This document shows positions 10,915 to 37,365 of a stretch of DNA of 64,000 nucleotides, one piece after another. The translations under genes were made by a program, and so were the position numbers. Position 1 is the stretch's first letter. Every line of letters starts with the position of its first letter. The stretch is from contig NZ_FMXC01000004.1 of NCBI RefSeq assembly GCF_900103655.1, positions 1 to 64,000 on the forward strand. Reading direction: 5' to 3'. The notes under the pieces are model-generated. The model searched no databases and was not told the DNA's origin. It worked only from the letters and a program-made list of their open reading frames with translations. This DNA comes from Lactobacillus kefiranofaciens. GTDB taxonomy: Bacteria > Bacillota > Bacilli > Lactobacillales > Lactobacillaceae.

Positions 10915-10930
10915 AATTTTCACCTCTATT

Positions 10931-10950
10931 ATTTATTACGCAAAAAGAGG
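10931..10950 (-). promoter_or_regulatory. Competence-type (ComX/SigH) box before comFA
   Basis: On the minus strand CTCTTTTTGCGTAATAAAT, with the GCG 27 bases before the comFA ATG. Nearly the same element precedes coiA and recA. It resembles the streptococcal cin-box (T-tract plus TACGAATA), so it is probably the site of a competence sigma factor. Confidence 0.65.
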
Positions 10951-10958
10951 CGATTTTT

Positions 10959-11621
10959 TTGTCAGAAAAAGAAATTTTTTTAACAATTAAGCAAAATGGT
11001 AGCAGTGAATTAATTATCAAAAAAAGCAGATTCATTACTAGCATGGCTCGCACCACTACAGTTGACGAGGCAAATGCGTTTATTCAAAAAATCTCTAAGC
11101 AATATCGTGATGCGACTCATAACACTTTTGCTTACACCATCGGACTAAATGATAATCAGGTTAAAGAAAGCGATAATGGCGAACCTTCAGGTACAGCGGG
11201 CGTACCCGAATTGAAAGCACTCCAATTAATGAAACTAAAAAATGTTACCGTAGTAGTCACGAGATACTTTGGTGGGATTAAATTAGGTGCTGGCGGTTTA
11301 ATTCGTGCTTACTCCAACAGCGTCACCAACGCCGTAGAAAACATTGGCGTAATCAAGCGTGTATTGCAGCAAGAATTAATTTTCAGGGTTCCCTATAATC
11401 GCTTCGATGAGGTAGATCATTATCTTAAAACAAATAATATTTTTATAGCTAACACCGAATATGGCGTTGATGTTAAAATCCATATTTTTTTAGATAGCAA
11501 TGAACAAGAACAAACAAAAAATGACCTAACTAATCTCTTAGCAGGTCAAGTCAATTTTACTAATGGCGAAAAACGTTATAACGAAATTCCAGTAGAAGAC
11601 AATAATTATCATGAGCAATGA
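10959..11621 (+). CDS. yigZ: YigZ/IMPACT family protein
   Basis: A 220-residue protein with the UPF0029 (IMPACT) N-terminal domain, signature TRYFGGIKLGAGGLIRAYS at about residues 105-123, and a C-terminal DUF1949 ferredoxin-like domain from about 140. The biochemical role is not settled; eukaryotic IMPACT regulates translation, and bacterial members are conserved without a clear phenotype. The start is probably the TTG at 10959, after AAGAGG. It is divergent from comFA, and the comFA competence box lies between the two starts, so its own promoter must lie inside the 5' end of comFA. It converges with tagO on a shared terminator. Confidence 0.88.
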   Translation: MSEKEIFLTIKQNGSSELIIKKSRFITSMARTTTVDEANAFIQKISKQYRDATHNTFAYTIGLNDNQVKESDNGEPSGTAGVPELKALQLMKLKNVTVVVTRYFGGIKLGAGGLIRAYSNSVTNAVENIGVIKRVLQQELIFRVPYNRFDEVDHYLKTNNIFIANTEYGVDVKIHIFLDSNEQEQTKNDLTNLLAGQVNFTNGEKRYNEIPVEDNNYHEQ

Positions 11622-11655
11622 AAAAGAGCTTGGTTAACCAGGCTCTTTATTTTTT
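11621..11655 (+). terminator. Bidirectional terminator between yigZ and tagO
   Basis: AAAGAGCTTGG and CCAGGCTCTTT form a stem with flanking A-rich and T-rich runs, so it can end transcripts from both sides. Confidence 0.8.
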
Positions 11656-12807
11656 CGCTTTATTTTTGCTTTTTAGTTGGTCAGGTTTCTCGTCACCTAA
11701 ATGCCAAACTTCTACTGTAGGATCAGTTTTGCTTTTCTGATTAATAATTTTTTGAATTACATGCATTAAAGGATGATATTTTTCACCTAATAAGCCAATT
11801 GATTCCACGAAATATTCTAGTGCAACTAATAGTCCTAATATTAATAACCAAGTGCCCCATGCTGGTGAAAGCAAGAACAATAGCGAAATAAAAGAAAATA
11901 CTAATGACAAAGCATATATTGTTAATACAGTTTGTCTATGCGTCAATCCCATACGCATTAACTGGTGGTGCAAATGATGCTTATCAGCTTCTGAAATTGG
12001 CTTTTTATTTAGTTTACGCCGGATCATTGCATATACCGTATCAGTAATTGGCACGCCTAAAATGATAATTGGTACCAGTAATGAAATAAAGGTCACATTT
12101 TTTAAGCCTTTCAAGGATAATACCGCAACCATAAAGCCGATATAAAGAGCACCAGTATCTCCTAAAAAAATCTTAGCTGGATGGAAATTATACGGTAAAA
12201 AACCCAATAGACAGGCAGCCAGCATAAAACAAGCAATTGGCACATATAACTGATGCGTATGCAGGAAGAAATATCCTACAATCCCCATGGTTGTCAAAGA
12301 AATTAACGATACACCATCAGCTAAACCATCTAAACCATCTATTAAATTAACAGCATTAGTTAAAGCTAAAATCCAAAAAATCGTAATCGGAAAACTCCAC
12401 CACCCCAAATTAACTTCATGCGCTACAAAGGGCAATTTTAAAACATTCATGCGTATTCCTGCTAAAAAATAAATAATTAACGAAGCAATAAAAATCCCAA
12501 ACATTTTTTGTCTTGGTTTTAATTCTAGAATATCATCAATTAATCCCGTCAACACGATTACGCTTGAAGCCAGCAAAATTGAAAAAATTTCATGCGTAGG
12601 GAATTGTTCTCGTAGAAGCACGAAGGCCCCAATGTTAAAGGTAACGAAGATACCAAGTCCCCCAATCGTTGGCATCGGCTTTTTATTAACGCGGCGCGCG
12701 TTAGGATTATCTACGGCCCCTAATACAAAAGCAAGACGCCTGATAAAGGGTGTAATAGCGGCCGAAATGATAACTAATAAAAATAATTCAACAATAATTT
12801 TAAACAT
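11647..12807 (-). CDS. tagO: Undecaprenyl-phosphate GlcNAc-1-phosphate transferase (TagO/WecA type)
   Basis: Polytopic membrane enzyme of the MraY/WecA family. It moves GlcNAc-1-phosphate from UDP-GlcNAc to undecaprenyl phosphate, the first step of wall teichoic acid or related glycopolymers. Visible are the DDILELKPRQK loop, the Mg-binding NAVNLIDGLDGLADG, FLGDTGALYIG and the cytoplasmic HHLHHQLMR motif typical of WecA/TagO rather than MraY. About ten hydrophobic segments are followed by a charged tail. At 386 residues it is slightly longer than Bacillus TagO. It stands alone between rny and yigZ. Confidence 0.92.
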   Translation of the reverse strand: MFKIIVELFLLVIISAAITPFIRRLAFVLGAVDNPNARRVNKKPMPTIGGLGIFVTFNIGAFVLLREQFPTHEIFSILLASSVIVLTGLIDDILELKPRQKMFGIFIASLIIYFLAGIRMNVLKLPFVAHEVNLGWWSFPITIFWILALTNAVNLIDGLDGLADGVSLISLTTMGIVGYFFLHTHQLYVPIACFMLAACLLGFLPYNFHPAKIFLGDTGALYIGFMVAVLSLKGLKNVTFISLLVPIIILGVPITDTVYAMIRRKLNKKPISEADKHHLHHQLMRMGLTHRQTVLTIYALSLVFSFISLLFLLSPAWGTWLLILGLLVALEYFVESIGLLGEKYHPLMHVIQKIINQKSKTDPTVEVWHLGDEKPDQLKSKNKAKK

Positions 12808-12871
12808 ATTTGGCTACTTTCCTTATTTACTTGGTTTAATTATACAAGTAGAGGAGATTTTGTACAAATAA

Positions 12872-12905
12872 CAAAAAAGTTTGAGATTTTCATCCCAAAC
12901 TTTCT
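12872..12905 (-). terminator. rny terminator
   Basis: Minus-strand stem AAAGTTTGGGA / TCTCAAACTTT, short loop, then a T6 run, right after the rny stop. Confidence 0.85.
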
Positions 12906-12909
12906 TTTC

Positions 12910-14544
12910 TTATTTAGCAATTGCCACAACCCGCTTCTCACGGATAAGGGTAATTTTAATATTTCCCGGATAATCAAGTTCTTTTTCAACTTGGTTGCGA
13001 ATATCCCGAGCTAAAATTACTGTACGATCATCTGAAACCTCATCAGGTTCAACCATCACGCGTACTTCACGTCCAGCTTGAATTGCATATGCTTGCTTGA
13101 CGCCATGATAACTCTTAGCTATCTTCTCAAGTTCGGTTAAACGTCTGATATAGTTTTCTAAACTTTCGCTTCTTGCACCAGGACGAGCCGAGGAAATCGT
13201 ATCTGCTGCAACTACAAGTTCAGCAATAAACGATAACTTAAGTACATCTCCGTGGTGAGCGGCAATCGCATTAACTACAATCTCATTTTCATGATACTTA
13301 CGAGTTAATTCAACCCCAATTTCTACATGGGAACCTTCAATATCATGATCGATTGCTTTACCAATATCGTGTAATAATCCCGCGCGAACCGCTAATTTTT
13401 CATCTAGACCTAGTTCAGCAGCCATAGTGCCGGCTAGCTTACCAACTTCAATTGAATGAGATAAAACATTTTGACCATATGAAGTACGATACTTAAGTCG
13501 GCCTAGTGTCTTAACTAGCTCCGGATTCATACGGTGAATTCCGAGTTCCATTAAGGCACTTTCACCAGCTTCATAAATATCGTCGTTAACTTCTTTTCTG
13601 GCCTTATCAACCATCTCTTCAATTCTAGTCGGATGAATTCGACCATCTTTGATTAAACGCTCCATTGCCCTCTTAGCAATCTCACGTCTAATTGGATCAA
13701 ATCCACTCAAGGTAACTACCTTTGGCGTATCATCAATGATTAGATCAATGCCAGTTAAAGCTTCAAATGAACGAATGTTGCGTCCTTCGCGGCCGATAAT
13801 CCGTCCCTTCATCTCTTCATTTGGTAAATCTACTACAGAAACAGTCGTCTCGGCAACCGTATCTGCAGCACTACTTTGAATAGCATCAACAATGATTTGA
13901 TTAGCATAATGATCAGCCTTAGCCTTAACTTCTTCATTGCTATTTCTGATCATTTCGGCACGTTCTTTGACTAGTTCATCAGATAATTGACTAAGCACAA
14001 TTTTTTTAGCTTCTTCTTTATCTAATTTCGCCACATCATAAAGCTTTTGCCGTCTAGCCTCAACCAATTCATCAGCCTTAGTTAGTTTTTCTTTTAAACT
14101 AGCATTCTGCTGCTTTAATTGATCCTCTTTTTGCGTAAGTCCAGCTTCTCGCTCATCTAATAAAGAATTCTTATGTTCCAAGGTATCTTCACGTTGTTGC
14201 AAACGATTTTCTTGGCGAGCTAAGACATCTTTCTTAGAATTTAGTTCGTCTTCGGTCTTTTGCTTATAATCGCGGATTTGTTCTTGAGCCTCAAGAATTT
14301 TTTCTTTCTTAGCGTTCTCTGCACTTTGCTTAACAGCTTCCGCCGCTTGCTTTTGTGCATTAACTTCTGCCTGAGCTGCAGTTACCTGAGCTTTAGCATC
14401 AGCCAAAATATGATCAGCATCATTTTGAGCATTCTGAGCTTTTTGCTCCCATGAATGCTTGCGAACAGCATAACCAATTGCTGTACCTACCAAGATTGAA
14501 ACAATGGCAGTTGCGACGGGAATCACAATTAACAAATTATTCAT
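12910..14544 (-). CDS. rny: Ribonuclease Y
   Basis: Membrane-anchored endoribonuclease that starts mRNA decay in Firmicutes. The 544-residue protein has a single N-terminal membrane segment (about 5-25), a long coiled coil (about 30-200, rich in Glu, Lys, Gln and Ala), a KH domain with [15 protein letters not shown] (about 235-250) and an HD domain with [10 protein letters not shown] and [10 protein letters not shown]. All catalytic HD residues are visible. It lies downstream of recA, separated by the recA terminator. Confidence 0.96.
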
Positions 14545-14622
14545 GATTACTATCGCCTTTTTTTGAAATTATTCACACTACTTTTATGATAAAGAACCTC
14601 TGTGTTGATGTCAATTAAGATG

Positions 14623-14650
14623 AAAAAACCTTGGAAAATTATTCCAAGGT
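14623..14650 (-). terminator. recA terminator
   Basis: Minus-strand perfect stem CCTTGGAA / TTCCAAGG, 5-base loop, T6 tail. Confidence 0.9.
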
Positions 14651-14662
14651 AAAAGGTAAATT

Positions 14663-15772
14663 CTATTTAGCTTTATCTTTTTGATCGGCTTTTTCAGCAT
14701 TTTTCTGATCAATTTTTTCTTCTGCTTCTTCTCGCTTTTCCTTTATTTTTTCTGGATTTTCGCGGTCAGCAATTGATTTTTCATCAATACCATAAGCCTT
14801 ACGAACTTGCTCTTGAATATCTTGATAAATATCTGGATGATCTTCAAGATACTTTTTAGCATTTTCACGGCCTTGACCAATTCGCTCAGTCTTATATGAG
14901 TACCATGAACCAGCCTTATTAATAATATCCTTGTCGGCAGCCATATCCAGCAATTCTCCACTCTGAGAAATACCCTTACCGTACATAATATCAACTTCAG
15001 CTACCTTGAAAGGTGGGGCAACCTTATTCTTAACTACCTTGATCTTAACTCGGTTACCTAAAACATCACCTGATTGTTTAATCTGTTCAGCTCTTCTAAC
15101 TTCCAGACGAATAGTTGAATAAAACTTCAGCGCACGACCACCAGGAGTAGTTTCAGGATTACCAAACATCACGCCAACTTTCTCACGAATTTGATTGATA
15201 AAGATGGCAATTGTCTTAGTTTTAGAAATGGTACCCGACAATTTCCGCAGAGCTTGACTCATTAAACGAGCTTGCAGACCAACATGGGCATCCCCCATTT
15301 CACCTTCAATTTCTGCACGTGGTACTAATGCAGCAACTGAGTCAACCACCACAATATCAACTGCACCACTAGAAATTAAGGTATCTGCGATCTGCAATCC
15401 CTCTTCACCTGTGTTAGGCTGCGACAAAATCAAAGAATCAATATCGACGCCCAATGCCTCAGCATAAGCGGGGTCCATTGCATTTTCAGCATCGATATAT
15501 GCAGCAGTACCACCGCGCTTTTGTACTTCAGCAACAGCATGTAGCGCCACAGTCGTCTTACCAGATGATTCAGGGCCATAGACTTCAATAATACGACCCC
15601 GAGGATAGCCACCTACACCAATGGCGGCATCTAAAGCTAATGAACCGGTAGGTACAGTAGATATTTGCGTATCAGCCTTTTCGCCCATCCGCATAACAGC
15701 ACCTTTACCGAAATTCTTTTCGATTTTTTTAAGCGCTGCATCAAGGGCAGCCTTTTTTTCATCTTTGGCCAT
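14663..15772 (-). CDS. recA: Recombinase RecA
   Basis: Strand-exchange ATPase and SOS co-protease. The 369-residue protein has Walker [10 protein letters not shown] (66-74), the RecA signature [14 protein letters not shown] and the L2-loop segment [11 protein letters not shown]. The C-terminal tail is very rich in Lys, Glu and Asp, usual in lactobacilli. The ATG follows TAGGAGG. The upstream region holds a sigma-A promoter, an SOS-like box and a competence-type box, so both DNA damage and competence may drive it. cinA, which many Firmicutes carry between pgsA and recA, is absent here. Confidence 0.97.
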
Positions 15773-15801
15773 TAATTTCCTCCTAAATTTAATACTTTAT
15801 A

Positions 15802-15831
15802 ATTATACTTTGACCAGTATTCAATTTGCAA
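15802..15831 (-). promoter_or_regulatory. recA sigma-A promoter
   Basis: Minus strand: -35 TTGCAA (15831-15826), 18-bp spacer, -10 TATAAT (15807-15802), 30 bp before the recA start codon. Confidence 0.65.
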
Positions 15832-15839
15832 GCAAAATG

Positions 15840-15853
15840 CAAACGAGCGTTCA
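15840..15853 (-). promoter_or_regulatory. SOS (LexA)-like box at recA
   Basis: Minus strand TGAACGCTCGTTTG, close to the Gram-positive SOS consensus CGAACnnnnGTTCG. The core GAAC-N4-GTTT has one mismatch. It lies directly upstream of the recA -35 element, a sensible operator position. Confidence 0.5.
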
Positions 15854-15871
15854 AAGAATTTATCCTTCACT

Positions 15872-15890
15872 ATTTATTACGCAAAAAAAG
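15872..15890 (-). promoter_or_regulatory. Competence-type (ComX/SigH) box before recA
   Basis: Minus strand CTTTTTTTGCGTAATAAAT, 100 bp before the recA ATG and upstream of the sigma-A promoter. It is the same element as before comFA and coiA. Confidence 0.62.
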
Positions 15891-15911
15891 AAAACTTTTT
15901 TCTCAAAAAAT

Positions 15912-15940
15912 AAAAAAAGAAGCATTTTTCTGCTTCTTTT
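15912..15940 (-). terminator. pgsA terminator
   Basis: Minus-strand perfect stem AAAAGAAGCA / TGCTTCTTTT with a 6-base loop and further T residues. It ends the ymf-rodZ-pgsA transcript and insulates recA. Confidence 0.85.
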
Positions 15941-15960
15941 AATTTATTTTTCAGTTTATC

Positions 15961-16521
15961 TTACATTGAGCCCTTGAATATACCCCATGATTGATGGAAG
16001 TAGTCATACCCTGAATAAATAGTAAAGATCAATGCTAAGTAGAGCAAGATCGTACCAATGTACCAGAAATTGCCAATTAATAAAAAGATAATTGAAAGCA
16101 TCTGACAAGTCGTCTTGATCTTACCTGGCATTTTAGCTGCCAACACTTGACCTTTATTTTCGGCCAAAATTAAACGTAAACCAGTAACAGCTAATTCGCG
16201 ACAAACAATAATCGCTACAATCCAAGCTGGAGCAAGCTTCAATTCTACTAAAAAGATAAAAGCAGTCATCGTCAGCATTTTATCTGCCAACGGATCAGCA
16301 AACTTGCCAAAGTTGGTAACCATATTGCGTGAACGTGCAATATGACCATCAAACCAGTCAGTAGCAGAAGCAACGGCAAATACAATTGCTGCAATTACCC
16401 AGCTCCAAATAACAGTTGAGTTACCTACGGTAGTATGAGCAGTCCCACCAAAAATAATAATTAACATAAATACTGGAATCAAAAAGATTCTAAAAACAGT
16501 AAGTTTATTGGGTAAATTCAT
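15961..16521 (-). CDS. pgsA: CDP-diacylglycerol-glycerol-3-phosphate 3-phosphatidyltransferase
   Basis: Membrane enzyme that makes phosphatidylglycerol phosphate, the committed step to phosphatidylglycerol and cardiolipin. The 186-residue protein has four to five hydrophobic segments. The CDP-alcohol phosphotransferase signature D-G-x2-A-R-x8-G-x3-D-x3-D is seen in DWFDGHIARSRN through FGKFADPLADK. It lies 22 bp after rodZ, the last gene of the conserved ymfF-ymfH-ymfI-rodZ-pgsA block. Confidence 0.95.
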   Translation of the reverse strand: MNLPNKLTVFRIFLIPVFMLIIIFGGTAHTTVGNSTVIWSWVIAAIVFAVASATDWFDGHIARSRNMVTNFGKFADPLADKMLTMTAFIFLVELKLAPAWIVAIIVCRELAVTGLRLILAENKGQVLAAKMPGKIKTTCQMLSIIFLLIGNFWYIGTILLYLALIFTIYSGYDYFHQSWGIFKGSM

Positions 16522-16543
16522 TCTTCTTTATTTCTCCTAAATC

Positions 16544-17671
16544 CTAATTGCCATTATCATTATTACCACTGTCATTACCGCCGCCATTATTGTTATTTTG
16601 GGTAGTGGTTGATGATTGTTGGGCACTAGATGATTGTTGAGTTTGACTACTTTGATGAGTTTGACTGCTCTGAGTAGTGGTTGATGATTGTTTCTGACTG
16701 CTTTGGGTAGTAGTTTTATTTCTAGTAGTGCTACTCTGCGTGCGACTTTGAGTAGTTGAACCAGTTTTATTATCGTTATTACCAGTGTTGCCATTATTAG
16801 TCGTCGTGCCAGTTGAATCATTTGAATGATCACTATGAGTAGTTGATTTCTTAGCTTTACCAATTAACAAAGTAATGGTCCGATATGCATTATTCGGTGC
16901 GTATGGAATTTTCTTACCGGCAATGGTAATTGAAGTCCCGTTATCGTTACCTAAGGTAACTACTACACGTTCTACATTAGCTGACAAATTAACAGTATGC
17001 TTTTTCTTAGCTAGCAAAGTTGAACTCCAAACACTAACGTTATTAGCTATCACACTAGCTGAAATGTTTTGAGTAGAACCTGCACGAACAACCAACTTAC
17101 GGTTCTTCTTTAAACCAGTTACACGATATTCATTGTCGCTAATCTTCTTCACTTTCACTGGGTTAACCGCAATTTTCTTCTTTGGTTTCTTTGACGAAGA
17201 TGAAGATGATTTCTGTGATGAAACAGTTACGCTATTGTTATCAGCTTGATTATGCTGCCCACCTGATGCAATATGTGCATATAAAGCATATACAACTAGA
17301 ATTACGATAATTAAACCAAGTGCAATCGCAATACGAGGTAAGTAGTTCTTCCATAGATTCTTTTTATTATCTGTGGTTTGACGAACTTCTTCGCTCTTAT
17401 TATCAATTGAATTTTCTACATATTCATCTGGATCAGCCTCAGGCACATCTTCGTGGTAATCGCTGAGTAATTCCTTGCCATCTAATCCAACAACTTGAGC
17501 ATATTGACGAATAAATGCTCTAACATAAAAATCACCAGGAAGCTTATCGAATTCATTTTTTTCAATTGCTGTCAGATATCTACTTTGAATCTTAGTAGCT
17601 TTTTCAATATCTCCAATCGAAAGTCCTTTTGCTTCTCTAGCACTTTTTAATTTATCTCCGATATCTGCCAT
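16544..17671 (-). CDS. rodZ: RodZ-like helix-turn-helix membrane protein
   Basis: A 375-residue protein with a cytoplasmic Cro/C1-type helix-turn-helix domain (about 5-70), one membrane segment (about 110-130), an extracellular DUF4115 beta domain (about 165-265) and a low-complexity tail. RodZ links MreB to the wall synthesis machinery, and the Bacillus member is YmfM. The last ~95 residues are almost only Ser, Thr, Gln, Asn and Gly, and are coded by imprecise DNA repeats, so the tail length probably varies between strains. This is a likely surface-exposed or wall-spanning tail. Confidence 0.88.
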   Translation of the reverse strand: MADIGDKLKSAREAKGLSIGDIEKATKIQSRYLTAIEKNEFDKLPGDFYVRAFIRQYAQVVGLDGKELLSDYHEDVPEADPDEYVENSIDNKSEEVRQTTDNKKNLWKNYLPRIAIALGLIIVILVVYALYAHIASGGQHNQADNNSVTVSSQKSSSSSSKKPKKKIAVNPVKVKKISDNEYRVTGLKKNRKLVVRAGSTQNISASVIANNVSVWSSTLLAKKKHTVNLSANVERVVVTLGNDNGTSITIAGKKIPYAPNNAYRTITLLIGKAKKSTTHSDHSNDSTGTTTNNGNTGNNDNKTGSTTQSRTQSSTTRNKTTTQSSQKQSSTTTQSSQTHQSSQTQQSSSAQQSSTTTQNNNNGGGNDSGNNDNGN

Positions 17672-17738
17672 ATTTACCTCTTCAAAATTAAGTTTAACAA
17701 ATTGAGTATACCATAAAATTTTGCTTACAACGTCTTAG

Positions 17739-18467
17739 TTATAAAAGCCAGCCACCTGTAACATAAATTGTCTGCCCAGTAAGATAGCTACTACGCGGAT
17801 TCAATATAGTTTTAACCCAATAAGAAATATCTTCGCCTTGAGCCCAGCGACCTGCCGGAATTTCTTCCTGCACCTCTTCAATTGTAGCTTGAGAAAAAAT
17901 GCTATTCATTTGTGTTTTCACAGCACCAGGTGCAATTACATTCACGGTTAGGTTATTTGACGCGACTTCGCGCGCATATGCTTGAGCAAAACGACTCAAT
18001 CCACTTTTAGTCCCGCTATATACGGATTCTAATGCACTGCCAGCACCACCATAAACGGAGCCTAAATAAACAATTCGACTAAAACTCTGCTTCATTAATT
18101 GCGGCTCTAATAATTTAGTTAATTTAATTGGCGTAGCTAAATTAATATTAATCACTTGACTAATATTAGTTAATTTTTCATCACCTAAAAAACCATAGTT
18201 AGTTATCCCTTGAGCAAAAATCGCAGCATTAACTGGCAATAAACTATTTACAAAACTAGTTAGTTCTTGATCGCTGGTCGCAAAATTCAACTGAATAGGC
18301 ATAAAATCTAATTCAGGATACTTAGCAAAAAGTTCTTGGGCTAATTGTTCAGCTTGTTCTTTTTTCGTATTGTAATGCAAATACAGCGACCAGCCACTTA
18401 ACGCCAATTCTCGGCAAATAGCTTGTCCAATACCACCAGTGGCACCAAAAACAATCGCTCGCTTCAC
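17739..18467 (-). CDS. ymfI: Short-chain dehydrogenase/reductase (YmfI type)
   Basis: A 242-residue Rossmann-fold reductase with GATGGIGQAIC at the NAD(P) site (about 6-16) and the catalytic Ser plus YSGTK (Tyr-x-x-x-Lys). In Bacillus the gene at this position, YmfI, reduces the 5-aminopentanone modification on Lys of elongation factor P; the same role is inferred only from synteny and similarity. I chose the GTG at 18467, because AAGGAGTGAT lies correctly before it; the upstream TTG at 18476 has no such site. The RBS lies within the end of ymfH. Confidence 0.85.
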   Translation of the reverse strand: MKRAIVFGATGGIGQAICRELALSGWSLYLHYNTKKEQAEQLAQELFAKYPELDFMPIQLNFATSDQELTSFVNSLLPVNAAIFAQGITNYGFLGDEKLTNISQVININLATPIKLTKLLEPQLMKQSFSRIVYLGSVYGGAGSALESVYSGTKSGLSRFAQAYAREVASNNLTVNVIAPGAVKTQMNSIFSQATIEEVQEEIPAGRWAQGEDISYWVKTILNPRSSYLTGQTIYVTGGWLL

Positions 18468-18472
18468 TAAGA

Positions 18473-23341: not shown

Positions 23342-23354
23342 GTACTCACCCTAA

Positions 23355-24310: not shown

Positions 24311-24328
24311 TCAAAAAACTCCTTAATC

Positions 24329-24359
24329 AAAAAAGCGTAGCTTTTAAGCCACGCTTTAA
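24329..24359 (-). terminator. Terminator of the AI-2E family permease gene
   Basis: Minus-strand stem AAAGCGTGGCTT / AAGCTACGCTTT (one mismatch or wobble) followed by T6. Confidence 0.8.
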
Positions 24360-24361
24360 AA

Positions 24362-25564: not shown

Positions 25565-25583
25565 CTTTTTATGGTCCTAGTCT

Positions 25584-25964
25584 TTAAATATGTTCATAAA
25601 CAATGTCGTCATCGACTTTAAAGTTTGGCAATATCCCTGCTGCATCTGGTTCAAAATAGACAGCATTTGCTAAAGGCGTCTTAGGAACCTTACAGTTAAA
25701 GAACAAAGTTGCGTGACCTAATGCCTTCATGTTGCTTTCTACCATTGGACCAACATAGCTTGCCACATAGGTTTGACCGTCAACAGTAACAGTATCGCCT
25801 TTTTTAAAGACAAAACCACTAACTGGCGTTTCATTACCAAACTTTTGGATCACAGAAACATCTTCTAAATCCTTGTTGGCACCTTCACCAAATAAAATTA
25901 CCATACCGTCTTTATTATCAACGGCTTTTTTACCAATTGCTTTAATAGTTGAAATCCATTTCAT
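25584..25964 (-). CDS. Orphan PTS glucitol/sorbitol IIA-like protein
   Basis: A 126-residue protein that matches the glucitol/sorbitol IIA fold: the REGA-like block FGEGANKDLEDVSVIQ (about 25-40) and the block ALGHATLFFN (about 82-91), whose His sits in the family's conserved GHxTL motif. No IIB or IIC for glucitol and no sorbitol-phosphate dehydrogenase lie nearby, so it may have a regulatory or unrelated role. It precedes the AI-2E permease gene by 19 bp and follows the P-type ATPase gene; co-transcription with the permease gene is likely. Confidence 0.78.
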   Translation of the reverse strand: MKWISTIKAIGKKAVDNKDGMVILFGEGANKDLEDVSVIQKFGNETPVSGFVFKKGDTVTVDGQTYVASYVGPMVESNMKALGHATLFFNCKVPKTPLANAVYFEPDAAGILPNFKVDDDIVYEHI

Positions 25965-26035
25965 AATTTATATCTCCTTAAAAATAATTTTAGCATAAGG
26001 AAAGCCGCTTAAAAACTTTAAACAGCTCAAATTCT

Positions 26036-28792: not shown

Positions 28793-28962
28793 CTATGTAC
28801 GCCTTCTTAGTTTTTACTACGAACTTTATTCATTTTTCCTTATGGAATAACCGTAACACTTTTCTGAAGAAACAAGTCATAATCCGCTTTGGTGCTTCAC
28901 ATGGTATACTTAATTTCAGTAATGGCTAAGATATTTTCTAAAAAAGAAAGGCAATTAAATAA

Positions 28963-29991
28963 ATGAAAGTATTAATCGGTGGTTATACCAAAAAAACTTC
29001 TAAAGGTATTTATGAATTACCTTTTACCGGTGAAAATAATGATGCTCGACTAAGCAAAGCTGAGAATATTATCAGTGTGGGCGGGCCTACATACTTCCAA
29101 AAAGATGGAGATTTAGTTTTCGCGATTAATAACGCGGGAGACGAAGGCGGGATTAGTGCCTTTAAATTAAGCACACAAGGTGCAAGTGAAGTTGACCATT
29201 ACTTGACTCCTGGTGCTTCACCTGCTTATGTAGGAATCAATCGTGAACAAAAACTGCTTTACACGGCAAACTATCACACCGCTGTTTTATCAGTTTTCAG
29301 CTACAACAATGATGGCAAGTTAGACTTGATCACAACTACTACACATAAGGCTGAGATTCTTGGTCCTCGTCCAGAACAAACAGATGGCCCTCATCCTCAT
29401 TTCTTCGATCAAACTCCAGCTGGCAACTTGGTCAGCTGCGATTTAGGCAACGATACAGTTGATTTTTATCATCTTGAAAAAGGAAAATTAAAACATTTGG
29501 CTCAATACAAAAACGAGGCTGGCTTTGGCAGTCGTCACATTGTCTTCTCAAAAGATGGTAATTACTTCTACGTTGTCGGCGAATTATCCAGCAAAATTAA
29601 TGTAGTTAAGTTTAATGAAGATAACTGGAATTTTGAAAATATCGCCACAGTTAAGACTATTCCTGAAGACTTCACTGCTCATAACGGTGCCGCAGCTCTC
29701 TATATCAGTAAAGACGGCAAATATGTTTATAATTCCAATCGCGGTCATAATTCAATCACTGTCTTTAAAGTTAACGATGACCATACTTTGAGCTTAGTTC
29801 AACGGGTTTCAACCTTTGGTGATTTCCCTCGAGATTTCAATTGGGATGCTAACCAAAAATATGTCGTAGCTGCTAACCAAAACACTGATAATGCTACGCT
29901 TTACCTAAGAAACGCTGGAACAGGAACCCTAACTCCAATCCAAAAAGAAATTGCAGTTCCAGAAGGTACTCGCGTTTTATTTACTAAATAG
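28963..29991 (+). CDS. pgl: 6-phosphogluconolactonase (beta-propeller type)
   Basis: A 342-residue seven-bladed propeller of the lactonase family (YkgB/Pgl), hydrolysing 6-phosphogluconolactone in the oxidative pentose phosphate route. Typical family segments are GGYTKKTSKGIYEL at the start, GPRPEQTDGPHPHF, SCDLGNDTVDFY and YNSNRGHNSITVF. The ATG follows AAGAAAGG. A -10-like TATACT lies at 28905-28910. It ends at a strong terminator, so it is monocistronic. Confidence 0.88.
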   Translation: MKVLIGGYTKKTSKGIYELPFTGENNDARLSKAENIISVGGPTYFQKDGDLVFAINNAGDEGGISAFKLSTQGASEVDHYLTPGASPAYVGINREQKLLYTANYHTAVLSVFSYNNDGKLDLITTTTHKAEILGPRPEQTDGPHPHFFDQTPAGNLVSCDLGNDTVDFYHLEKGKLKHLAQYKNEAGFGSRHIVFSKDGNYFYVVGELSSKINVVKFNEDNWNFENIATVKTIPEDFTAHNGAAALYISKDGKYVYNSNRGHNSITVFKVNDDHTLSLVQRVSTFGDFPRDFNWDANQKYVVAANQNTDNATLYLRNAGTGTLTPIQKEIAVPEGTRVLFTK

Positions 29992-30009
29992 CTTCACTCT
30001 TCATTAATT

Positions 30010-30042
30010 AAGTCATGGCAATAGCTGTCATGACTTTTTTCT
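30010..30042 (+). terminator. pgl terminator
   Basis: Stem AAGTCATG / CATGACTT with an 11-base loop and a T6 tail. Confidence 0.85.
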
Positions 30043-30099
30043 TATCATTTTTTAAAGTAAAATAAGTAATAGATACTTTGAAATTAAGAAGGTGACAAA

Positions 30100-30792
30100 G
30101 TGAAACCAAAAATCATTCGCATTATCTTATTTATTCTAGGAGGACTGCTTGGATTACTATTACTTTATAAATTGTACTTAAGCTATCTCCCCGAATTAAA
30201 ACTATTAGTTCATTTTGACCACCATAATGAAGAGTTGCTAATTAAAATGGTCCGTAGTCATGGAATTGAAGATCTAGCCTTTTTATTCATTTTAAATGCT
30301 ATCTGCGTGGCAATTCCTGGTTTATCAAACGGAATTTTCTGCGTCTTAAATGGAATTTTATATGGCCCAGCTTTCGGCTTTATTGTTAACTGGATCAGTG
30401 ATATTTTAGGGCAAATCGTTCTGATGGAGCTCTTGCGCAAGCTTTATGATATTAAACATATGACCCATAGCAAGATTTATAAATTACTGACCTCACAAAA
30501 ATATCCAATGATTGCTTTAACAATCGGCTATATGATTCCGTTTATTCCGAGCGCAACCGTCAGTTACGTCAATGGCATGATTAATAAAAATAATCGTAAA
30601 AAACAGCTGCTTCCAATCGTGATTGGCGTAGCTCCCGTTGCTTATATTTATGCATACGGTGGCGACTCGATCCTCCACCTTGATAGCAGCAGGATCATTA
30701 AAGCGGTAATTGTTTTTATTGTACTGGCATTAATAGCCGGCGCTATTCTCTTAGTAATGAAAGTTTTAAAAGAACATGCAAAAAAAGCTTGA
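30100..30792 (+). CDS. VTT-domain (TVP38/TMEM64-like, DedA superfamily) membrane protein
   Basis: A 230-residue polytopic membrane protein. The VTT/SNARE-associated pattern is seen: AICVAIPGLSNGIFCVLNGILYGPAFGF in two hydrophobic stretches (kept here as a description of residues 67-94), and later GYMIPFIPSATVSYVNGMI. DedA-superfamily proteins can flip lipid carriers such as undecaprenyl phosphate; that role here is an inference. The start is GTG after AGAAGGTGAC. The terminator overlaps its stop. Confidence 0.82.
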   Translation: MKPKIIRIILFILGGLLGLLLLYKLYLSYLPELKLLVHFDHHNEELLIKMVRSHGIEDLAFLFILNAICVAIPGLSNGIFCVLNGILYGPAFGFIVNWISDILGQIVLMELLRKLYDIKHMTHSKIYKLLTSQKYPMIALTIGYMIPFIPSATVSYVNGMINKNNRKKQLLPIVIGVAPVAYIYAYGGDSILHLDSSRIIKAVIVFIVLALIAGAILLVMKVLKEHAKKA

Positions 30793-30813
30793 GTTTTAGC
30801 TCAAGCCTTTTTC
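30787..30813 (+). terminator. Bidirectional terminator between VTT gene and ohyA
   Basis: Stem GCTTGAG / CTCAAGC with a 6-base loop; A-run before and T-run after, so it serves both convergent genes. The VTT stop codon lies inside the first arm. Confidence 0.82.
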
Positions 30814-30829
30814 ATTTTGTCTTTTTTAT

Positions 30830-32605
30830 CTAAATTAAATTGGCTTCTTTAAGCAATTCTTCTACCCAAGTCTTCTTAATCTTCTTCATACCAGTTTTAA
30901 CTGCCCATTTTTCAGGCAATGGCATATCTTGATCTTCGATCTTCTTTTTATCTGACATGTAGTACATCGCACGCAGAAGCTGACGAATATCATAGATTGA
31001 ATCAAAGACTTCTGGAACGCCACGGTCAACATTAAGCAATGTGTAAACTGCTTCCATCGCAGTTCTAACTGAATATTCAGTAGTAAAGACCGTATCTCTA
31101 GTTGGCGATTCAGCGAAGTTCCCAATAAAGGCAATGTTAATTGATCCTTCTGGTACAACTGCAGGGCGATCGCCATCACGACGCGGCATGAAGTAACTAG
31201 TAATATATGGCATGTAAACCGGAACAGTATTCATATTCTCTTTACTAGCCATTTCACTAATTTGACTGTCTGGCACACCTAAGTGATATAGCAATTCTTC
31301 CGCAATTTCCTTACCAGTACAATCGACGATTCTCTTCTTAATGTAGTTACCTTCAGTATCTGAATACAAAGCATAAATCCAAACTACAATTTGATCTGGA
31401 TTTTGGCTCTTGAAGTGTGGCTGACGATGAATAGTAAAGCTAAGTTCCCAATTAGAGTCAACAATTGTGATAATCCCACCAGTATTAACTTTGCCATCAT
31501 AGAGACTACGCTTAGTCAACCGTTCAAAGTATGGGGCTAATTTTCTATTTTCTAAAGTAGCAGTTGCAGATACAAACCAGCTCCGCTCTGGCAAGTTTTC
31601 ACAGAAGACATCTGGATGACCAAAGGCCGGATCCTGCTTAGCCAAGTTTTCCCATAATTTCCAGGAGCTGCCCTTGGCATGAGTAATTGGAGCTGGCGTA
31701 TTTTGATCACCATAAGTTGAACTTTCAGTGATTGAACCATTAGTAATAAAGACAATATCATTTGGCGTTAAAGGAATTTCAGCTTCCTTGCCCTTTTGAG
31801 TCATGATAATTTTCTTGGCAATCTTTTGACTACCATCATGATCTACTTCTACATTCTTAACATGACAATCATATTCAAATTGAACGCCGTGATCCTTCAA
31901 GTAAGCCAATAATGGCTTAACCATTGATTCATATTGGTTATACTTGTTAAACTTCAAAGCAGTAAAATCTGGCAGGCCATCAATATGGTGAATGAAACGC
32001 ATGCAGTAGCGCCGCATTTCAGCTACTGAATGCCACTTTTCAAAAGCAAACATAGTTGACCAATAAGACCAGAAGTTAGTCTTGAAGAAGTCATCACTGA
32101 AGAATTCCTCAATAGTTTCACCCTCAAGTTCTTTTTCCGGAGTCATGATCAATTTCACAATTTCTTTAGTGCATTTGCCTAAACCATATTGACCATCGCT
32201 TGGCAGACGATCACCGCGCTTATATATTAACCGGCAATTTGATGAGTTAGGATCTTTTTTATCGAGCCAATAATATTCATCCAGATAGGATGCACCTGGA
32301 ATTTCCAAACTTGGAATTGAGCGATACATATCCCACAAACATTCAAAGTGGTTTTCCATTTCACGACCGCCACGCACTACAAAGCCTGCGTTAGGACGGT
32401 TGGCACCATCAAGTGAACCACCTGCGACTGGTAATTCTTCTAAAACATGAATATTTTTGCCCTTCATTTGAGCATCACGAACTAAGAATACAGCAGCAGA
32501 AAGTCCTGCCAATCCGCTACCAATAATATAAGCGGACTTATGATCTACACCTGCAGGCTTCTGAGCATCTGCAAGGGCTTCATAATTACCATTGGAATAA
32601 TACAT
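30830..32605 (-). CDS. ohyA: Oleate hydratase (myosin-cross-reactive antigen family)
   Basis: A 591-residue FAD-dependent enzyme that adds water to the cis-9 double bond of oleic and linoleic acid, giving 10-hydroxy fatty acids. This detoxifies free unsaturated fatty acids. The FAD-binding [12 protein letters not shown] is at about residues 29-40. The family segments [12 protein letters not shown] and [15 protein letters not shown] are intact. Length is usual for lactobacilli. It is monocistronic, with AGAGGAC before the ATG. Confidence 0.95.
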
Positions 32606-32721
32606 AAAAGTGTCCTCTTTTCTGTATAGGTATAATTTTATCTTACACTTTCAATTCTAAAGAAAACGGTTTCCTTATGCAAGTCCTTAGTAGATTTCGC
32701 TAATAATTTTAGAATTCTTTA

Positions 32722-33634
32722 TTAATTAGCTAATTTACGCCATAATTCTTGCATATCAAGAGGATCACTGACCTCGACAGTTTGTAGCTGATCATGATTA
32801 AAAGAATCTGGAAAATTTAGATAAAAGCAGTTTAAAACTTGCCGTTTAAAGCCATCTTTAATCCCGTATAATGGATCACCATACAAGGGATGACCTAAAT
32901 AAGCCATGTGCACGCGTATCTGGTGCGTTCTCCCAGTAAGTAAGCGGAGCTGGATTAGACTAGCACCCGGAACTTGCTTAAGAACTTGATACTGTGTTTG
33001 TGCTTTTTTACCATCGGCAACTACTGCCCGCTTCACCCCACTACCCTTTTTACCAATTGGTTGATTAATCAAACCAGTCAATTCAGTTTCAGTAAAATTA
33101 CCATGGACAATGGCATGATATTTTTTGATAAATTTTTCTTTGCCGAGCTTGCTAAAACGAGCATGGGCAACCGCATTTTTACCTACTAAAACTAAGCCAG
33201 AAGTATCTCGGTCAAGCCGCGTAATAACATGTGGCTTCAAATTGACATTGTGGCTTCAAATTGACATTTTTTCGTGCGAAATAGCCCATAACCCGGTTAA
33301 CCACCGCATCATTATCTTCATACCTAGAGGGAATAGACAAAACACCAGCAGTCTTATTAACAATCAAATAATTTTTAGTTTCTAAAACAATTTTGATCGG
33401 ATTGGTAGACGGCTTTAAGAAATCATTTTTCTTTTCTTCTCCAGTAACGAAAATTACTTCATCCCCAGCTTTTAGCTGAAAACTAAGATACCGTCTCTTG
33501 TGATTCACCAAGATCATGCCATGGTGATAACGAGCCTTAATCAAGGCCTGATGTGAAAAACCGTTTTTTAACAAAAAAGAGCCCAATTTTTTTGGGTCTC
33601 TTTCATGCACAATTAGTTTGAATAAACTAGTCAT
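32722..33634 (-). pseudogene. RluA/RluD-family pseudouridine synthase, frameshifted by a 19-bp duplication
   Basis: The 5' part (33634 to about 33250) encodes an S4-like segment and the start of the synthase domain. The 3' part (from about 33240 to 32722) begins KPHVITRLDRDTSGLVLVG, holding the catalytic Asp of HRLDRDTSG. They are in different frames. The break is exactly at a perfect tandem duplication of 19 bp (33230-33248 and 33249-33267). Taking out one copy restores KNVNLKPHVITRLDRDTSG. The start at 33634 overlaps the nadK end by 8 bp. The nadK-rluD order matches Bacillus yjbN-yjbO. An assembly or sequencing artefact is possible but a clean duplication points to a real event. Confidence 0.9.
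33230..33267. repeat. Perfect 19-bp tandem duplication
   Basis: The unit tgtggcttcaaattgacat occurs twice in direct succession (33230-33248, 33249-33267). Nineteen is not a multiple of three, so it shifts the reading frame of the pseudouridine synthase gene. Confidence 0.97.
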
Positions 33635-34430
33635 TTTCTTTATTTTCTCCAATAAATGCATCTTCTACACGTGACCAAAAATGATGGTGTCCAAAACGAT
33701 CAAATTGAATCGAATGCCTAGAAATACGATATTCAATTTTCTTGGCATTACGGACATCTATTCTTGCTCCATCTACCGTCATCACGAAATGATCTGCATT
33801 AGGAATAATTGTAATCCATTGATCTGGTGCAATCACAATTGGCGCAGATAATGTCCTAAATACACGATTGTTAATCGAGGCAATTTCTGTCATCTGTAAA
33901 GCCTTTAAACGGGGATGAATCACTGCCCCACCTAAGGACTTGCTATAAGCCGTAGATCCCGTAGGTGTAGATACACATAGGCCATCCCCACGAAAATTTT
34001 CAAATAATTCATCGTTAATGTACACATCAGCTTCTAGAGTATGCGAAACCCGCTTCACTGCCGATTCATTAACGGCTAGATGATATTGCGTCTCACCCGA
34101 CTCTGTCAGCATCTTAATTTCAAGCAAGGGGTATTTGGCTGGCTCTCCTTTAGTCATAAAAAGTGCATCTACCATCTTATCAATGTCATAATTACGCCAA
34201 TCCGTATAAAAACCCAGGTGTCCCGTATGAACCCCAATGAAGCGCACTGAGTCTACCTGATTTTCATAACGGTGAAAGGCATTAATTAATGTGCCATCCC
34301 CACCTACGGTAATTACCACATCAGGATATTTAGCATCATACACAACACCTTTTTTATCTAATAACTCCTTTAAACGAGCCACTGTTTTTAGCGTCTGGTC
34401 GTAGTTATTATGCGCGATCGTTACTTTCAT
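33627..34430 (-). CDS. nadK: NAD kinase
   Basis: Phosphorylates NAD to NADP. The 267-residue protein has the GGDGT motif (TVGGDGTLINAFH, about 41-53), the second conserved block NESAVKRVSHTL and the glycine-rich GDGLCVSTPTGSTAYSKSLGG. It overlaps relQ by 4 bp upstream and the pseudouridine synthase gene by 8 bp downstream, so relQ-nadK-rluD-like form one operon, as in Bacillus (yjbM-yjbN-yjbO). Confidence 0.96.
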   Translation of the reverse strand: MKVTIAHNNYDQTLKTVARLKELLDKKGVVYDAKYPDVVITVGGDGTLINAFHRYENQVDSVRFIGVHTGHLGFYTDWRNYDIDKMVDALFMTKGEPAKYPLLEIKMLTESGETQYHLAVNESAVKRVSHTLEADVYINDELFENFRGDGLCVSTPTGSTAYSKSLGGAVIHPRLKALQMTEIASINNRVFRTLSAPIVIAPDQWITIIPNADHFVMTVDGARIDVRNAKKIEYRISRHSIQFDRFGHHHFWSRVEDAFIGENKEND

Positions 34431-35062
34431 AACTTTTCCTTGCCCTTATTCTTGGTAAAAATCTTCTGAGCTTCTTGAACCTCATCTTTAATCGACGACA
34501 TTTCTTCATCCAAGCGATAAGCAGCTTCAGCTGTAGACTTCAAACGTTCAGAAATATCATCTGGATAGACACCTTGATATTTATAATTTAAGGTATGTTC
34601 TACAGTAGCCCAGAAATTCATTGCTAAGGTTCTAATTTGAATCTCTGCAATTAATTTTTTAGGGCCCTCAGGCAGATAAACAGTATAATTAATCACCATG
34701 TGATATGAACGATATCCGGATGGTTTGGCATTTTTGATATAATCACGCTCTTCAACTACTTCCATGTCATCACGAGCGTGAATTAAATCTACCACCTTAT
34801 AGATATCATCGACAAATTGCGTTACGATTCGAATACCAGCGATGTCCTGCATATCCGTTTCAATTACGTCTGGATTAATCACCCGACGCTGCATCTTTTC
34901 TTTAATAGAATCTACTGTTTTAACCCTACCAATTACAAACTCAATCGGTGAATGTTCTCCCTTAGTTAAAAAGCCTTGTCTAAGAGAACGAAATTTAACC
35001 TTTAATTCACGAACAGCTTCGTTATAAGGCCACAAGAAATTATCCCAATCTATTTCTTTCAT
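34427..35062 (-). CDS. relQ: Small alarmone synthetase (RelQ/YjbM type)
   Basis: A 211-residue single-domain (p)ppGpp synthetase without hydrolase, TGS or ACT domains. The RelA/SpoT synthetase pattern is present: IGRVKTVDSIKEKMQRR, the D-I-A-G-I-R block QDIAGIRIVTQFVDDIY, and KPSGYRSYHMVINY. The C-terminal helices are those of tetramer-forming RelQ proteins. Members are usually controlled by transcription on envelope or alkaline stress. It is divergent from the CYTH gene and leads the relQ-nadK operon. Confidence 0.93.
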   Translation of the reverse strand: MKEIDWDNFLWPYNEAVRELKVKFRSLRQGFLTKGEHSPIEFVIGRVKTVDSIKEKMQRRVINPDVIETDMQDIAGIRIVTQFVDDIYKVVDLIHARDDMEVVEERDYIKNAKPSGYRSYHMVINYTVYLPEGPKKLIAEIQIRTLAMNFWATVEHTLNYKYQGVYPDDISERLKSTAEAAYRLDEEMSSIKDEVQEAQKIFTKNKGKEKL

Positions 35063-35137
35063 GAGAAAACATTCCTTTCTTAAGCAAACAAACTCATTTT
35101 ACCATATAATTAATGTAGATAGTTTGGAGGAAAAATT

Positions 35138-35746
35138 ATGAGTAAAAATCGCGAAATTGAAGCCAAAACACTATTAACTAAAAATATTTATGAAAAAATC
35201 ACCCATTCATTCCCAGTAAAACAAGATTTTGTCCAAGAGAATTATTATTTTGACACTCCTAATAGTCTGTTAAAAAAGCACCAAATTAGTCTAAGAATTA
35301 GAATTTACGCTGACCATGCCGAACAAACAATGAAAGTTCCAGATCCTAATCCCGTGCAAAAAAATTTTCATGAAGTAATTGAAATCAATGACAACCTAAC
35401 TCATGCCGAAGCTAAAAAATTAGTTGCACAAAAGCATTTTACTTTTCAAGGCAATATCGGTCATTATCTGAATGAGCATTTTAAACAAGAGCAAAAAGAT
35501 CTAGCTCTTTTTACCTGGAGTAAAACACGTCGCATCCTCATGAATGGACCTAAAAATGCCGAGTTAACTTTAGACGCGACATCATATCCAGATGGCTACC
35601 AAGACTTTGAACTCGAAATCGAAAATACTAACCCTAAATTAATTGGTCAAGTTCAGCAAGTGCTAGAATATGATTATGATTTTAGTCAAACCAGTACTAA
35701 TACTAATCAAAGCAAGATCGCTCGTGCAAACGCTCACAGAAAATAA
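35138..35746 (+). CDS. yjbK: CYTH domain protein (YjbK type)
   Basis: A 202-residue protein of the triphosphate tunnel metalloenzyme fold. The ExExK-type signature is at the very start (REIEAKTLL), followed by alternate charged strands such as QENYYFDTPN, SLRIRIYADHAEQTMKVP and ELTLDATSYPDGYQDFELEIE. Substrates of this group include inorganic triphosphate; here unknown. It faces relQ, as in Bacillus. RBS TTGGAGG precedes the ATG. Confidence 0.88.
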   Translation: MSKNREIEAKTLLTKNIYEKITHSFPVKQDFVQENYYFDTPNSLLKKHQISLRIRIYADHAEQTMKVPDPNPVQKNFHEVIEINDNLTHAEAKKLVAQKHFTFQGNIGHYLNEHFKQEQKDLALFTWSKTRRILMNGPKNAELTLDATSYPDGYQDFELEIENTNPKLIGQVQQVLEYDYDFSQTSTNTNQSKIARANAHRK

Positions 35747-35832
35747 CATATAGAAAATAAAGCATATTTTTTGTCACTGTTTTTGTTTCTTGCTAAAGTA
35801 ACAATTAGTAAAATATCAAAGAGGTCGAGAGT

Positions 35833-36450
35833 ATGTTTGAAATTTTTCTATTCATCAATCCAATAGGAATCTATTGCTATGACACAGAAAGACAAATCCG
35901 TAAAACCGTTGATGAATTAGGGGTAGATGTTTGTTATCATTACATCCCAATCGCTAATGTTTGTCTAGTTAATGACGATGCCATCCGTCGTCGTCAAGAT
36001 GCCCAAAAATTGCCTGATATCAGTACTTTTTCTAAAGCTACTTATGAAGCACTAGAGAACTATCATGCAATCAAGCTAACTTATGGTAATAAAAAGGCAC
36101 GCAGATATTTATATGAATTGCAAAAACGGTTAAGTCAAGACGCTTCTGCTTATAAGCCTGAATTGTTACAAGAGATTGCAACTGAACTAGATATTAAGAA
36201 TTCACCCATTGAAACGATTAAGCAGAGCGATTATCTACATACTTCAATTAAAGAAGACCAAAAACTGGCTAATCAATGGAGAATTCAAGCTACGCCTACA
36301 ACTATTATTTTTGACGAAAATAATGATCAAAACGGCGTCTTACTTGAAGGGCCAGTTAACCAAACTGACTTGATTCATCTATTTTTACCTAACTCATCTA
36401 ATTGGTTCTCCAATTTTTTACCACAACAAAATCATTTGCGCCTGATCTAA
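35833..36450 (+). CDS. spxH: DsbA-like adaptor (SpxH/YjbH type)
   Basis: A 205-residue thioredoxin-fold protein. In Bacillus, YjbH (SpxH) hands Spx to ClpXP for degradation. The N-terminal strand FLFINPIGIYCYDTE shows the family's degenerate redox site with one Cys only, and the late block RIQATPTTIIFDE has the cis-Pro. Spx itself is encoded 2 kb away, and the gene order fits the Bacillus spx-mecA-coiA-yjbH-yjbK-yjbM series. Its 3' end overlaps the convergent coiA end by 33 bp. Confidence 0.85.
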   Translation: MFEIFLFINPIGIYCYDTERQIRKTVDELGVDVCYHYIPIANVCLVNDDAIRRRQDAQKLPDISTFSKATYEALENYHAIKLTYGNKKARRYLYELQKRLSQDASAYKPELLQEIATELDIKNSPIETIKQSDYLHTSIKEDQKLANQWRIQATPTTIIFDENNDQNGVLLEGPVNQTDLIHLFLPNSSNWFSNFLPQQNHLRLI

Positions 36451-37308
36451 ATCAAGGCGTTTTTTTCGCAAAAATTTAGTTACTGAATCTTCTTCACCAG
36501 GATCTCGCCAAACTTGAAACAAACTATCCGGTAAATCCGTAACAGTCATTTTTCTCTCATACAACATTTGGCCGATTCGCAAGCCTAATTTACTCTTCTG
36601 CCTTATTTGTTTAATTAAGTATTCTCTTTGACTAGCTTTTTGTAAGACATACTTTCTCTTCAACGGCCTAAAATTCCAGAACGTTCTTAGATCAACCTCG
36701 TCTAATGCAAAATACTTGGTTTGATAGACTAACTTCTTAGTAAGTGGCTCCTGTAAAACATTATATTTTAAACAGAAATAATTTCTCTTAGGATTTACTT
36801 CCAAATAATAGTTACCCCATTTTTTATTTTTTCTAAAAAAGATTAATTGAGTATGCTTTAAGTTTCTTTTTAAATAATGTCGTTGACCTACAATCCAAAT
36901 ATCCATTACGCCAATTGTTTTATATAGGTTATGACGATGATTAAATTCGGCAGTACTTAATGGTGCACATTGTACCTCAAAAGCTAATTTTTTAGATGCC
37001 AACACATCCGCCCGCAATTGTCCATCTGCTAATGGTATCTCTACCTGAGCATTGAACCCAGCAGCTGTCAGCGCTGATTTGAGGAGCATCTTAGACAGAT
37101 GATGTTCTTCTTTTTCTCCTAAGGCACTGCCATAACTAGATATATGCTTAAAGAAAGCAGCTTTCTGCTCTGAAACAATTAAAATTACCTTTTTATTGCA
37201 ATGAGGACAACGATAATTATCCCAGTTTAACTTTTTTTGTCCTTTATTTACCAAATATGCTTCACTAACCGCAAGTACAATTTTCTTATTTAACATGGCT
37301 GCATACAT
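36418..37308 (-). CDS. coiA: Competence protein CoiA
   Basis: A 296-residue protein needed in streptococci for recombination of imported DNA. The N-terminal zinc-finger-like CPHCNKK (about 36-42) and the nuclease-like middle (HHLSKMLLK, then RADVLASKKLAFEVQCAP, a PD-(D/E)xK-like core D-x-n-E-x-Q) are visible. I chose the ATG at 37308 because GGGTGAT lies right before it; upstream codons fall inside a competence-type promoter box. The gene appears intact, unlike comFA. Confidence 0.9.
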   Translation of the reverse strand: MYAAMLNKKIVLAVSEAYLVNKGQKKLNWDNYRCPHCNKKVILIVSEQKAAFFKHISSYGSALGEKEEHHLSKMLLKSALTAAGFNAQVEIPLADGQLRADVLASKKLAFEVQCAPLSTAEFNHRHNLYKTIGVMDIWIVGQRHYLKRNLKHTQLIFFRKNKKWGNYYLEVNPKRNYFCLKYNVLQEPLTKKLVYQTKYFALDEVDLRTFWNFRPLKRKYVLQKASQREYLIKQIRQKSKLGLRIGQMLYERKMTVTDLPDSLFQVWRDPGEEDSVTKFLRKKRLDLDQAQMILLW

Positions 37309-37324
37309 TTTTATCACCCATGTT

Positions 37325-37340
37325 TTATTACGCAAAAAAG
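37325..37340 (-). promoter_or_regulatory. Competence-type (ComX/SigH) box before coiA
   Basis: Minus strand CTTTTTTGCGTAATAA, with the GCG 25 bases before the coiA ATG. It matches the comFA and recA boxes. The T-tract is also the tail of the mecA terminator. Confidence 0.65.
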
Positions 37341-37365
37341 AGCCGTTTTTTCACACCGACTCTTT
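37334..37365 (-). terminator. mecA terminator
   Basis: Minus-strand stem AAAGAGTCG / CGGCTCTTT (one G-U pair), 11-base loop, T6 tail. The T-tail is shared with the coiA competence box. Confidence 0.8.

Follow-up and report, generated by a model that had tools for sequence, protein, structure and literature searches.

Three copies of a short box, a T-tract followed by GCGTAATAA, were found before comFA, recA and coiA in positions 1 to 64,000 of contig NZ_FMXC01000004.1 of Lactobacillus kefiranofaciens (assembly GCF_900103655.1), the whole 64-kb stretch analysed here being referred to as the window. The three boxes very probably serve as promoters for the RNA polymerase holoenzyme with SigH, the alternative sigma factor of ComX type in this Lactobacillus, and the box is best read as the SigH promoter of this branch of the genus, a variant of the streptococcal CIN-box. 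It recurs in promoter position in three species, and its exact form is strongly enriched only in genomes with a similar SigH. The original prediction for this DNA had proposed that the box defines a SigH/ComX regulon, and this is supported by copies before late com genes across the genome together with a gene of the SigH/ComX type.

The pattern TTTTTGCGTAATAA has three exact copies in the window (10933-10946, 15874-15887 and 37325-37338), all on the minus strand, and none in 100 dinucleotide shuffles of the window. These are the three boxes first predicted, and the genes behind them are supported by Pfam. The start codon follows the G of GCG at 27 nt in comFA and at 25 nt in coiA, as had been given, and at 110 nt in recA, for which 100 had been given. 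The claim that the window holds no fourth copy is correct for TTTTTGCGTAATAA but not for GCGTAATAA, which occurs once more at 33219-33227 (plus strand) without a T-tract. A site at 3879 (GAACACTCGTTCTCTTA) was set aside, lying inside the open reading frame (ORF) 3334-4302.

The 2.28-Mb genome was found to contain 22 exact copies of TTTGCGTAATAA, against 1 for a backwards control pattern. Nineteen of the 22 are promoter-like, and 18 of these have an ORF or gene remnant downstream, target genes having been assigned by reading each site and with Pfam. The uptake genes comGA, comEA, comC, comFA and coiA are preceded by such sites, as are recombination/repair genes (dprA, recA, radC, rpsF-ssb, dut-radA and tag) and accessory genes, namely hicA, a DUF3990 gene and four Rpn-type genes or remnants. 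Two of the latter (L017 and L022) match Rpn family models and two (L005 and L016) are linked to Rpn by BLAST through relatives. The remaining promoter-like sites are L003, near a contig end without an assigned gene, and L006, before a 227-aa ORF (1530-2213, plus strand) that has a HELGH motif by eye and a metallopeptidase-like look, with no match in Pfam and NCBIfam searches. Among the genes at which further copies had been anticipated, comGA, comEA, comC, dprA and ssb (in the rpsF-ssb operon) carry the box; no listed copy belongs to comEC itself, and a comEC-like ORF (by eye) sits after comEA.

Counted from the G, A occupies -18, -17 and -16 in 18, 19 and 18 of the 19 promoter-like sites, T occupies -6, -5 and -4 in 18, 19 and 19, and T is found at +13 in all 19. 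As the search fixed only twelve columns, this conservation outside the pattern is independent evidence. A degenerate search of the same genome with 3 mismatches was useless (62 hits against 56 for the control). A single near-miss that precedes an ORF of 100 aa, GCGTAATTA, looks genuine. A plasmid search gave no match.

The box was also found before related genes in two further species. Genome G010 has 19 exact copies, 15 of them promoter-like, and 14 of these 15 precede relatives of targets in L. kefiranofaciens; the genes behind the 15 include rpsF, tag, three Rpn-type genes (L323, L336 and L338), comC, dut-radA, a hicA-like fragment, comEA, radC, a DUF3990 gene, comGA, recA and a Gp49-like gene with a helix-turn-helix (HTH) partner. 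The remaining promoter-like copy of the 15 in G010 is putatively assigned to dprA, which lies 1.2 kb downstream. In genome G005, 12 of 14 exact copies are promoter-like, all 12 before relatives of targets in L. kefiranofaciens (dut-radA, comC, tag, rpsF, the Rpn-type gene L345, coiA, recA, comFA, comGA, radC, comEA and dprA). The recA box of the window thus recurs at recA in both genomes, and the comFA and coiA boxes recur in G005. Genes or remnants of the Rpn family, which is recombination-promoting nuclease/transposase-like, stand behind the box in three species; we know of no described role of Rpn-type genes in transformation, although no search aimed at one was made. Toxin genes of toxin-antitoxin type also stand behind it (L004, L326 and L332: HicA, and the Gp49-like gene, toxin-antitoxin-like with its HTH partner).

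A profile search of the genome with PF04542 identified one strong match and two weak ones, one of them in a 40-aa frame and the other in a 182-aa ORF with rlmB and an RNase III-domain gene on its upstream side. NCBIfam SigH-family models match region 2 of this ORF weakly (best E 1.5e-6), and it is read as a divergent SigH/ComX-type gene near rlmB. Within the genus, 70 of the 75 genomes gave a SigH match, the nearest named one being that of L. ultunensis (67%). GCGTAATAA is absent from the 170 nt upstream of the L. kefiranofaciens sigH, where a 17-bp inverted repeat was seen that by eye is kept only in the closest relatives.

Box and SigH were compared in 58 of 74 relatives. The seven relatives with a SigH at least 57% identical hold a mean of 12.9 exact copies (control 2.0), and the 51 with a SigH less than 57% identical hold a mean of 1.7 (control 1.2), with a maximum of 7 in two genomes. 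Strong enrichment is thus limited to genomes with a similar SigH. In other clades the core is found in drifted form: all six comGA upstream regions L061-L066 read GCGTACTAATAA, and in the Lactobacillaceae a T-tract with a CGTA core precedes comGA in 18 of 30 genomes, chosen as the best among 248 that have the gene, against 1.7% of resampled sequence (here and in the operator and matrix tests below, first-order resamples rather than exact shuffles). This suggests that sigma factor and box drift together, with a fast-evolving SigH. The sigH locus has been described as conserved, and lactobacillar SigH proteins as of low mutual identity (PMC3364868).

In the proposed promoter, an A-tract would lie at about -35, the T-tract in the spacer and GCGTAATAA at the -10 position, where SigH is predicted to bind. 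Induced transcription would start about 14 nt past the G of GCGTAATAA, which would leave several com genes with only a very short leader that begins at the ribosome site. Members of the regulon would be the uptake machine (comG, comE, comC, comF and coiA), recombination and repair genes (recA, dprA, ssb, radA, radC, tag and dut) and, as accessory members, Rpn-type nucleases, HicA and DUF3990. To our knowledge, SigH-dependent transcription of such genes has been shown by experiment among lactobacilli only in Latilactobacillus sakei. SigH overproduction there strongly induces comG, comE, comC, comF and dprA, and raises recA only 2.7-fold and ssb 1.2-fold; natural transformation was undetected even under overproduction, and no condition inducing sigH was found (PMC3364868).

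Several observations weigh against a SigH promoter. Some copies look like background, among them 3 of the 22 in L. kefiranofaciens, which by eye lie inside genes (L007 in folD, L013 and L018), 4 of the 19 in G010 and 2 of the 14 in G005. The association of box and SigH ignores phylogeny, and the seven genomes with a similar SigH are probably one branch. The identity of SigH is based on gene order and a region-2 match that falls far short of the curated cut-offs (at best 27.9 bits, where 212 is required). Finally, recA and ssb barely respond to SigH in L. sakei, yet both carry the box here.

The box could instead be an activator site working with the housekeeping sigma factor. The ComK box of Bacillus subtilis consists of paired A and T tracts (An-N5-6-Tn-like), and many of the sites found here also read An-N5-6-Tn. 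ComK is moreover listed among the transcription factor families of Lactobacillaceae but not of Streptococcaceae (PMC3616900). However, none of the 75 genus genomes had a match to the ComK family at E 0.001, with a positive B. subtilis control, and ComK was rejected as the reader of the tracts; Lactobacillales are elsewhere stated to have no ComK homologue (PMC3364868). In addition, GCGTAATAA occupies the -10 place, no other strong -10 is seen by eye at a fixed position after it, and the com genes of L. sakei are induced by SigH overproduction (PMC3364868). An activator site is improbable. Chance or shared ancestry, in which T-tracts of upstream terminators meet a common 9-mer without regulatory role, would account for the background-like copies and for a coiA T-tract that doubles as part of a terminator-like hairpin, but is very hard to reconcile with the excess over the control pattern, the same genes boxed in three species and the conserved columns beyond the pattern.

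The sigH gene may itself be regulated via a conserved operator, possibly by LexA. RAAC-N4-GTTY was found within 170 nt upstream of sigH in 54 of 63 loci against 2.1% of resampled sequence, the genera including Lactobacillus, Companilactobacillus, Latilactobacillus, Lapidilactobacillus, Agrilactobacillus, Bombilactobacillus, Loigolactobacillus and Paucilactobacillus. The end of the operator is 25 nt from a -10-like hexamer in 42 of the 54 and 26 nt in 8, the hexamer being the best within a range, a choice that somewhat favours regular spacing. The pattern AAACNNNNGTTCNCTTA hit 84 of 251 family genomes, several at sigH by coordinates and others scattered, and therefore defines no regulon alone.

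The operator resembles that of lexA. AGAAC-RYYT-GTTTG was present in all 30 lexA promoters examined, drawn from the 70 genomes of the genus in which LexA was matched, and several sigH operators are lexA operators reversed, for example in Companilactobacillus insicii (AGAACATTTGTTT). A matrix built from the lexA operators placed 26 of 63 sigH upstream regions beyond the 95% level for resampled sequence and 13 of them beyond the 99% level, against 1 and 0 of 30 comGA controls (rank test 6e-10). The centres resemble those of LexA operators only weakly (a LexA-like form in 11 of 47 distinct cases, with 7.4 expected and 11 reached by 7% of column permutations), so that this signal comes mostly from the arms.

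Among 69 genus genomes, 54 of the 64 in which LexA was matched carry the operator, as does 1 of the 5 in which it was not (Fisher 0.005). When only near-complete genomes are counted, the figures are 47 of 57 and 0 of 3 (Fisher 0.008). The LexA-less genomes are possibly interrelated. The near-complete Lactobacillus genomes with neither a LexA match nor the operator are G009, G015 and G034. G008, G022 and G035, with a LexA only 51-55% identical, were counted as lexA-positive, and near-misses of the operator in the lexA-less G056 and, by eye, in G022 were counted as absent. The table of SigH, box and LexA excludes G031, G047, G060, G066 and G070 (no SigH match), G040 (partial) and a second G064 copy.

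Other data speak against LexA. No operator was found at sigH in ten genomes of the genus that do have LexA. In anaerobic L. reuteri, H2O2 raises lexA and lowers sigH, and under microaerobic conditions sigH is unaffected (PMC6722424), a hint against LexA control of sigH. Altered SigH levels also left UV survival of L. sakei unchanged (PMC3364868). With the evidence mixed, LexA is a live but unproven candidate regulator of sigH.

A dedicated activator other than LexA, which binds RAAC-N4-GTTY at sigH and turns competence on, has a little under an even chance of being correct. It would be consistent with the fixed spacing between operator and -10 and a -35 that is weak by eye, with the weakly LexA-like centres, and with sigH falling or being unaffected under H2O2 in L. 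reuteri (PMC6722424). However, the arms equal LexA half-sites, some operators are reversed lexA operators, and the three near-complete genomes without LexA also lack the operator. The lexA promoters examined also hold a constant spacing (by eye), and spacing therefore does not discriminate LexA from an activator.

Since the sigH operator resembles that of lexA, DNA damage might trigger competence. We tentatively raise the possibility, which falls clearly short of an even chance, that across the Lactobacillaceae SigH is under a LexA-type operator and that the signal opening the competence regulon is DNA damage rather than a pheromone. Such an SOS-to-competence cascade would act through the promoters with T-tract and GCGTAATAA, and through their drifted counterparts, on the uptake machine, recA, dprA, radA and Rpn-type nucleases.

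Features of the window around the three boxes, with coordinates on the whole 64-kb stretch
Feature	Coordinates	Strand	Details
comFC-like gene, downstream of comFA	8936..9631	-	Pfam double zinc ribbon and phosphoribosyltransferase
comFA reading frame	9628..10914	-	Pfam helicase domains from 10788 on; one in-frame stop
comFA predicted SigH-type promoter	10923..10960	-	A-tract 10960-10954, T-tract 10946-10942, GCGTAATAA 10941-10933, then AATAATAGAGG
recA	14663..15772	-	Pfam RecA
LexA-operator-like GAACGCTCGTTTG in recA upstream region	15840..15852	-	Downstream of box; form as in lexA operators
recA predicted SigH-type promoter	15864..15901	-	A-tract 15901-15896, T-tract 15889-15883, GCGTAATAA 15882-15874
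coiA	36418..37308	-	Pfam CoiA; start taken at ATG 25 nt past box
coiA predicted SigH-type promoter	37321..37351	-	A-tract 37351-37346, T-tract 37339-37334, GCGTAATAA 37333-37325
Terminator-like hairpin, mecA-coiA intergenic	37334..37368	-	-13.8 kcal/mol, z -4.1

In the window, recA is apparently under dual control, with a competence box and a LexA-like operator both upstream. The in-frame stop of comFA falls after codon 31, ahead of the zinc-finger cysteines, and comFA of G005 (L348) is open at this point; DNA uptake in the strain may therefore be impaired, unless a downstream start serves. The T-tract of the coiA box is part of the 3' arm of the mecA-coiA hairpin, whose loop of 11 exceeds the limit of 8 in the terminator pattern scan, which listed none between these genes. 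By eye, a similar design of hairpin and T-tract is seen at coiA of G005 (L346) and at comEA (L008).

Searches of the open-access literature, in the parts available, revealed no recognised description of the box or of a LexA-type operator at sigH, and no such box is described in the available parts of PMC10886434 (L. plantarum), PMC11244767 (Lactococcus) or PMC12470161 (a review). The main text of PMC3364868 gives no promoter motif, with 0 occurrences of motif, consensus or box. A regulon study of lactic acid bacteria predicted 13 LexA operons in Lactobacillaceae, naming parEC, addBA and nrnA, and sigH is unmentioned in the available part of its account (PMC3616900). As streptococcal cores differ and no description was found, the variant appears to be new. 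A defined box makes the regulon readable from sequence alone in this branch and supplies reporters, and with a conserved operator in front of sigH the trigger of competence can be tested directly. Lactobacilli carry DNA-uptake gene sets, and a cascade from SOS to competence could, if true, explain why their transformation in the laboratory is hard to find.

The streptococcal CIN-box (com-box), read by ComX/SigX, has a T-tract and the core TACGAATA. The box described here shares with it a short -10-like form before late com operons, the T-tract and a probable reader of the SigH family. However, the core differs, the 3 window and 19 genome sites reading GCGTAATAA (TACGAATA was not searched genome-wide), and the relatives keep CGTA rather than the streptococcal CGAATA at comGA in 18 of 30. 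The A-tract at about -35 and the position of sigH near rlmB are further differences. The two elements had been called alike but not the same, which the cores bear out. The SigH promoters of B. subtilis share the neighbourhood of the sigma locus and a purine-rich -35 but have a different -10. SigH is not a direct activator of the uptake genes in B. subtilis (PMC3364868), and in Streptococcus suis the CIN-box core is YTACGAAYW (PMC5167698). The L. sakei SigH regulon shares a SigH recognised by gene order and the targets comG, comE, comC, comF and dprA, but differs in that recA and ssb respond little and in that its Table 2 contains none of Rpn, HicA, DUF3990, tag and radC (PMC3364868). Compared with the LexA/SOS operator, the RAAC-N4-GTTY arms at sigH match the lexA operators of the genus, whereas the centre is more variable and the operator lies, by eye, ~4 nt farther from the -10.

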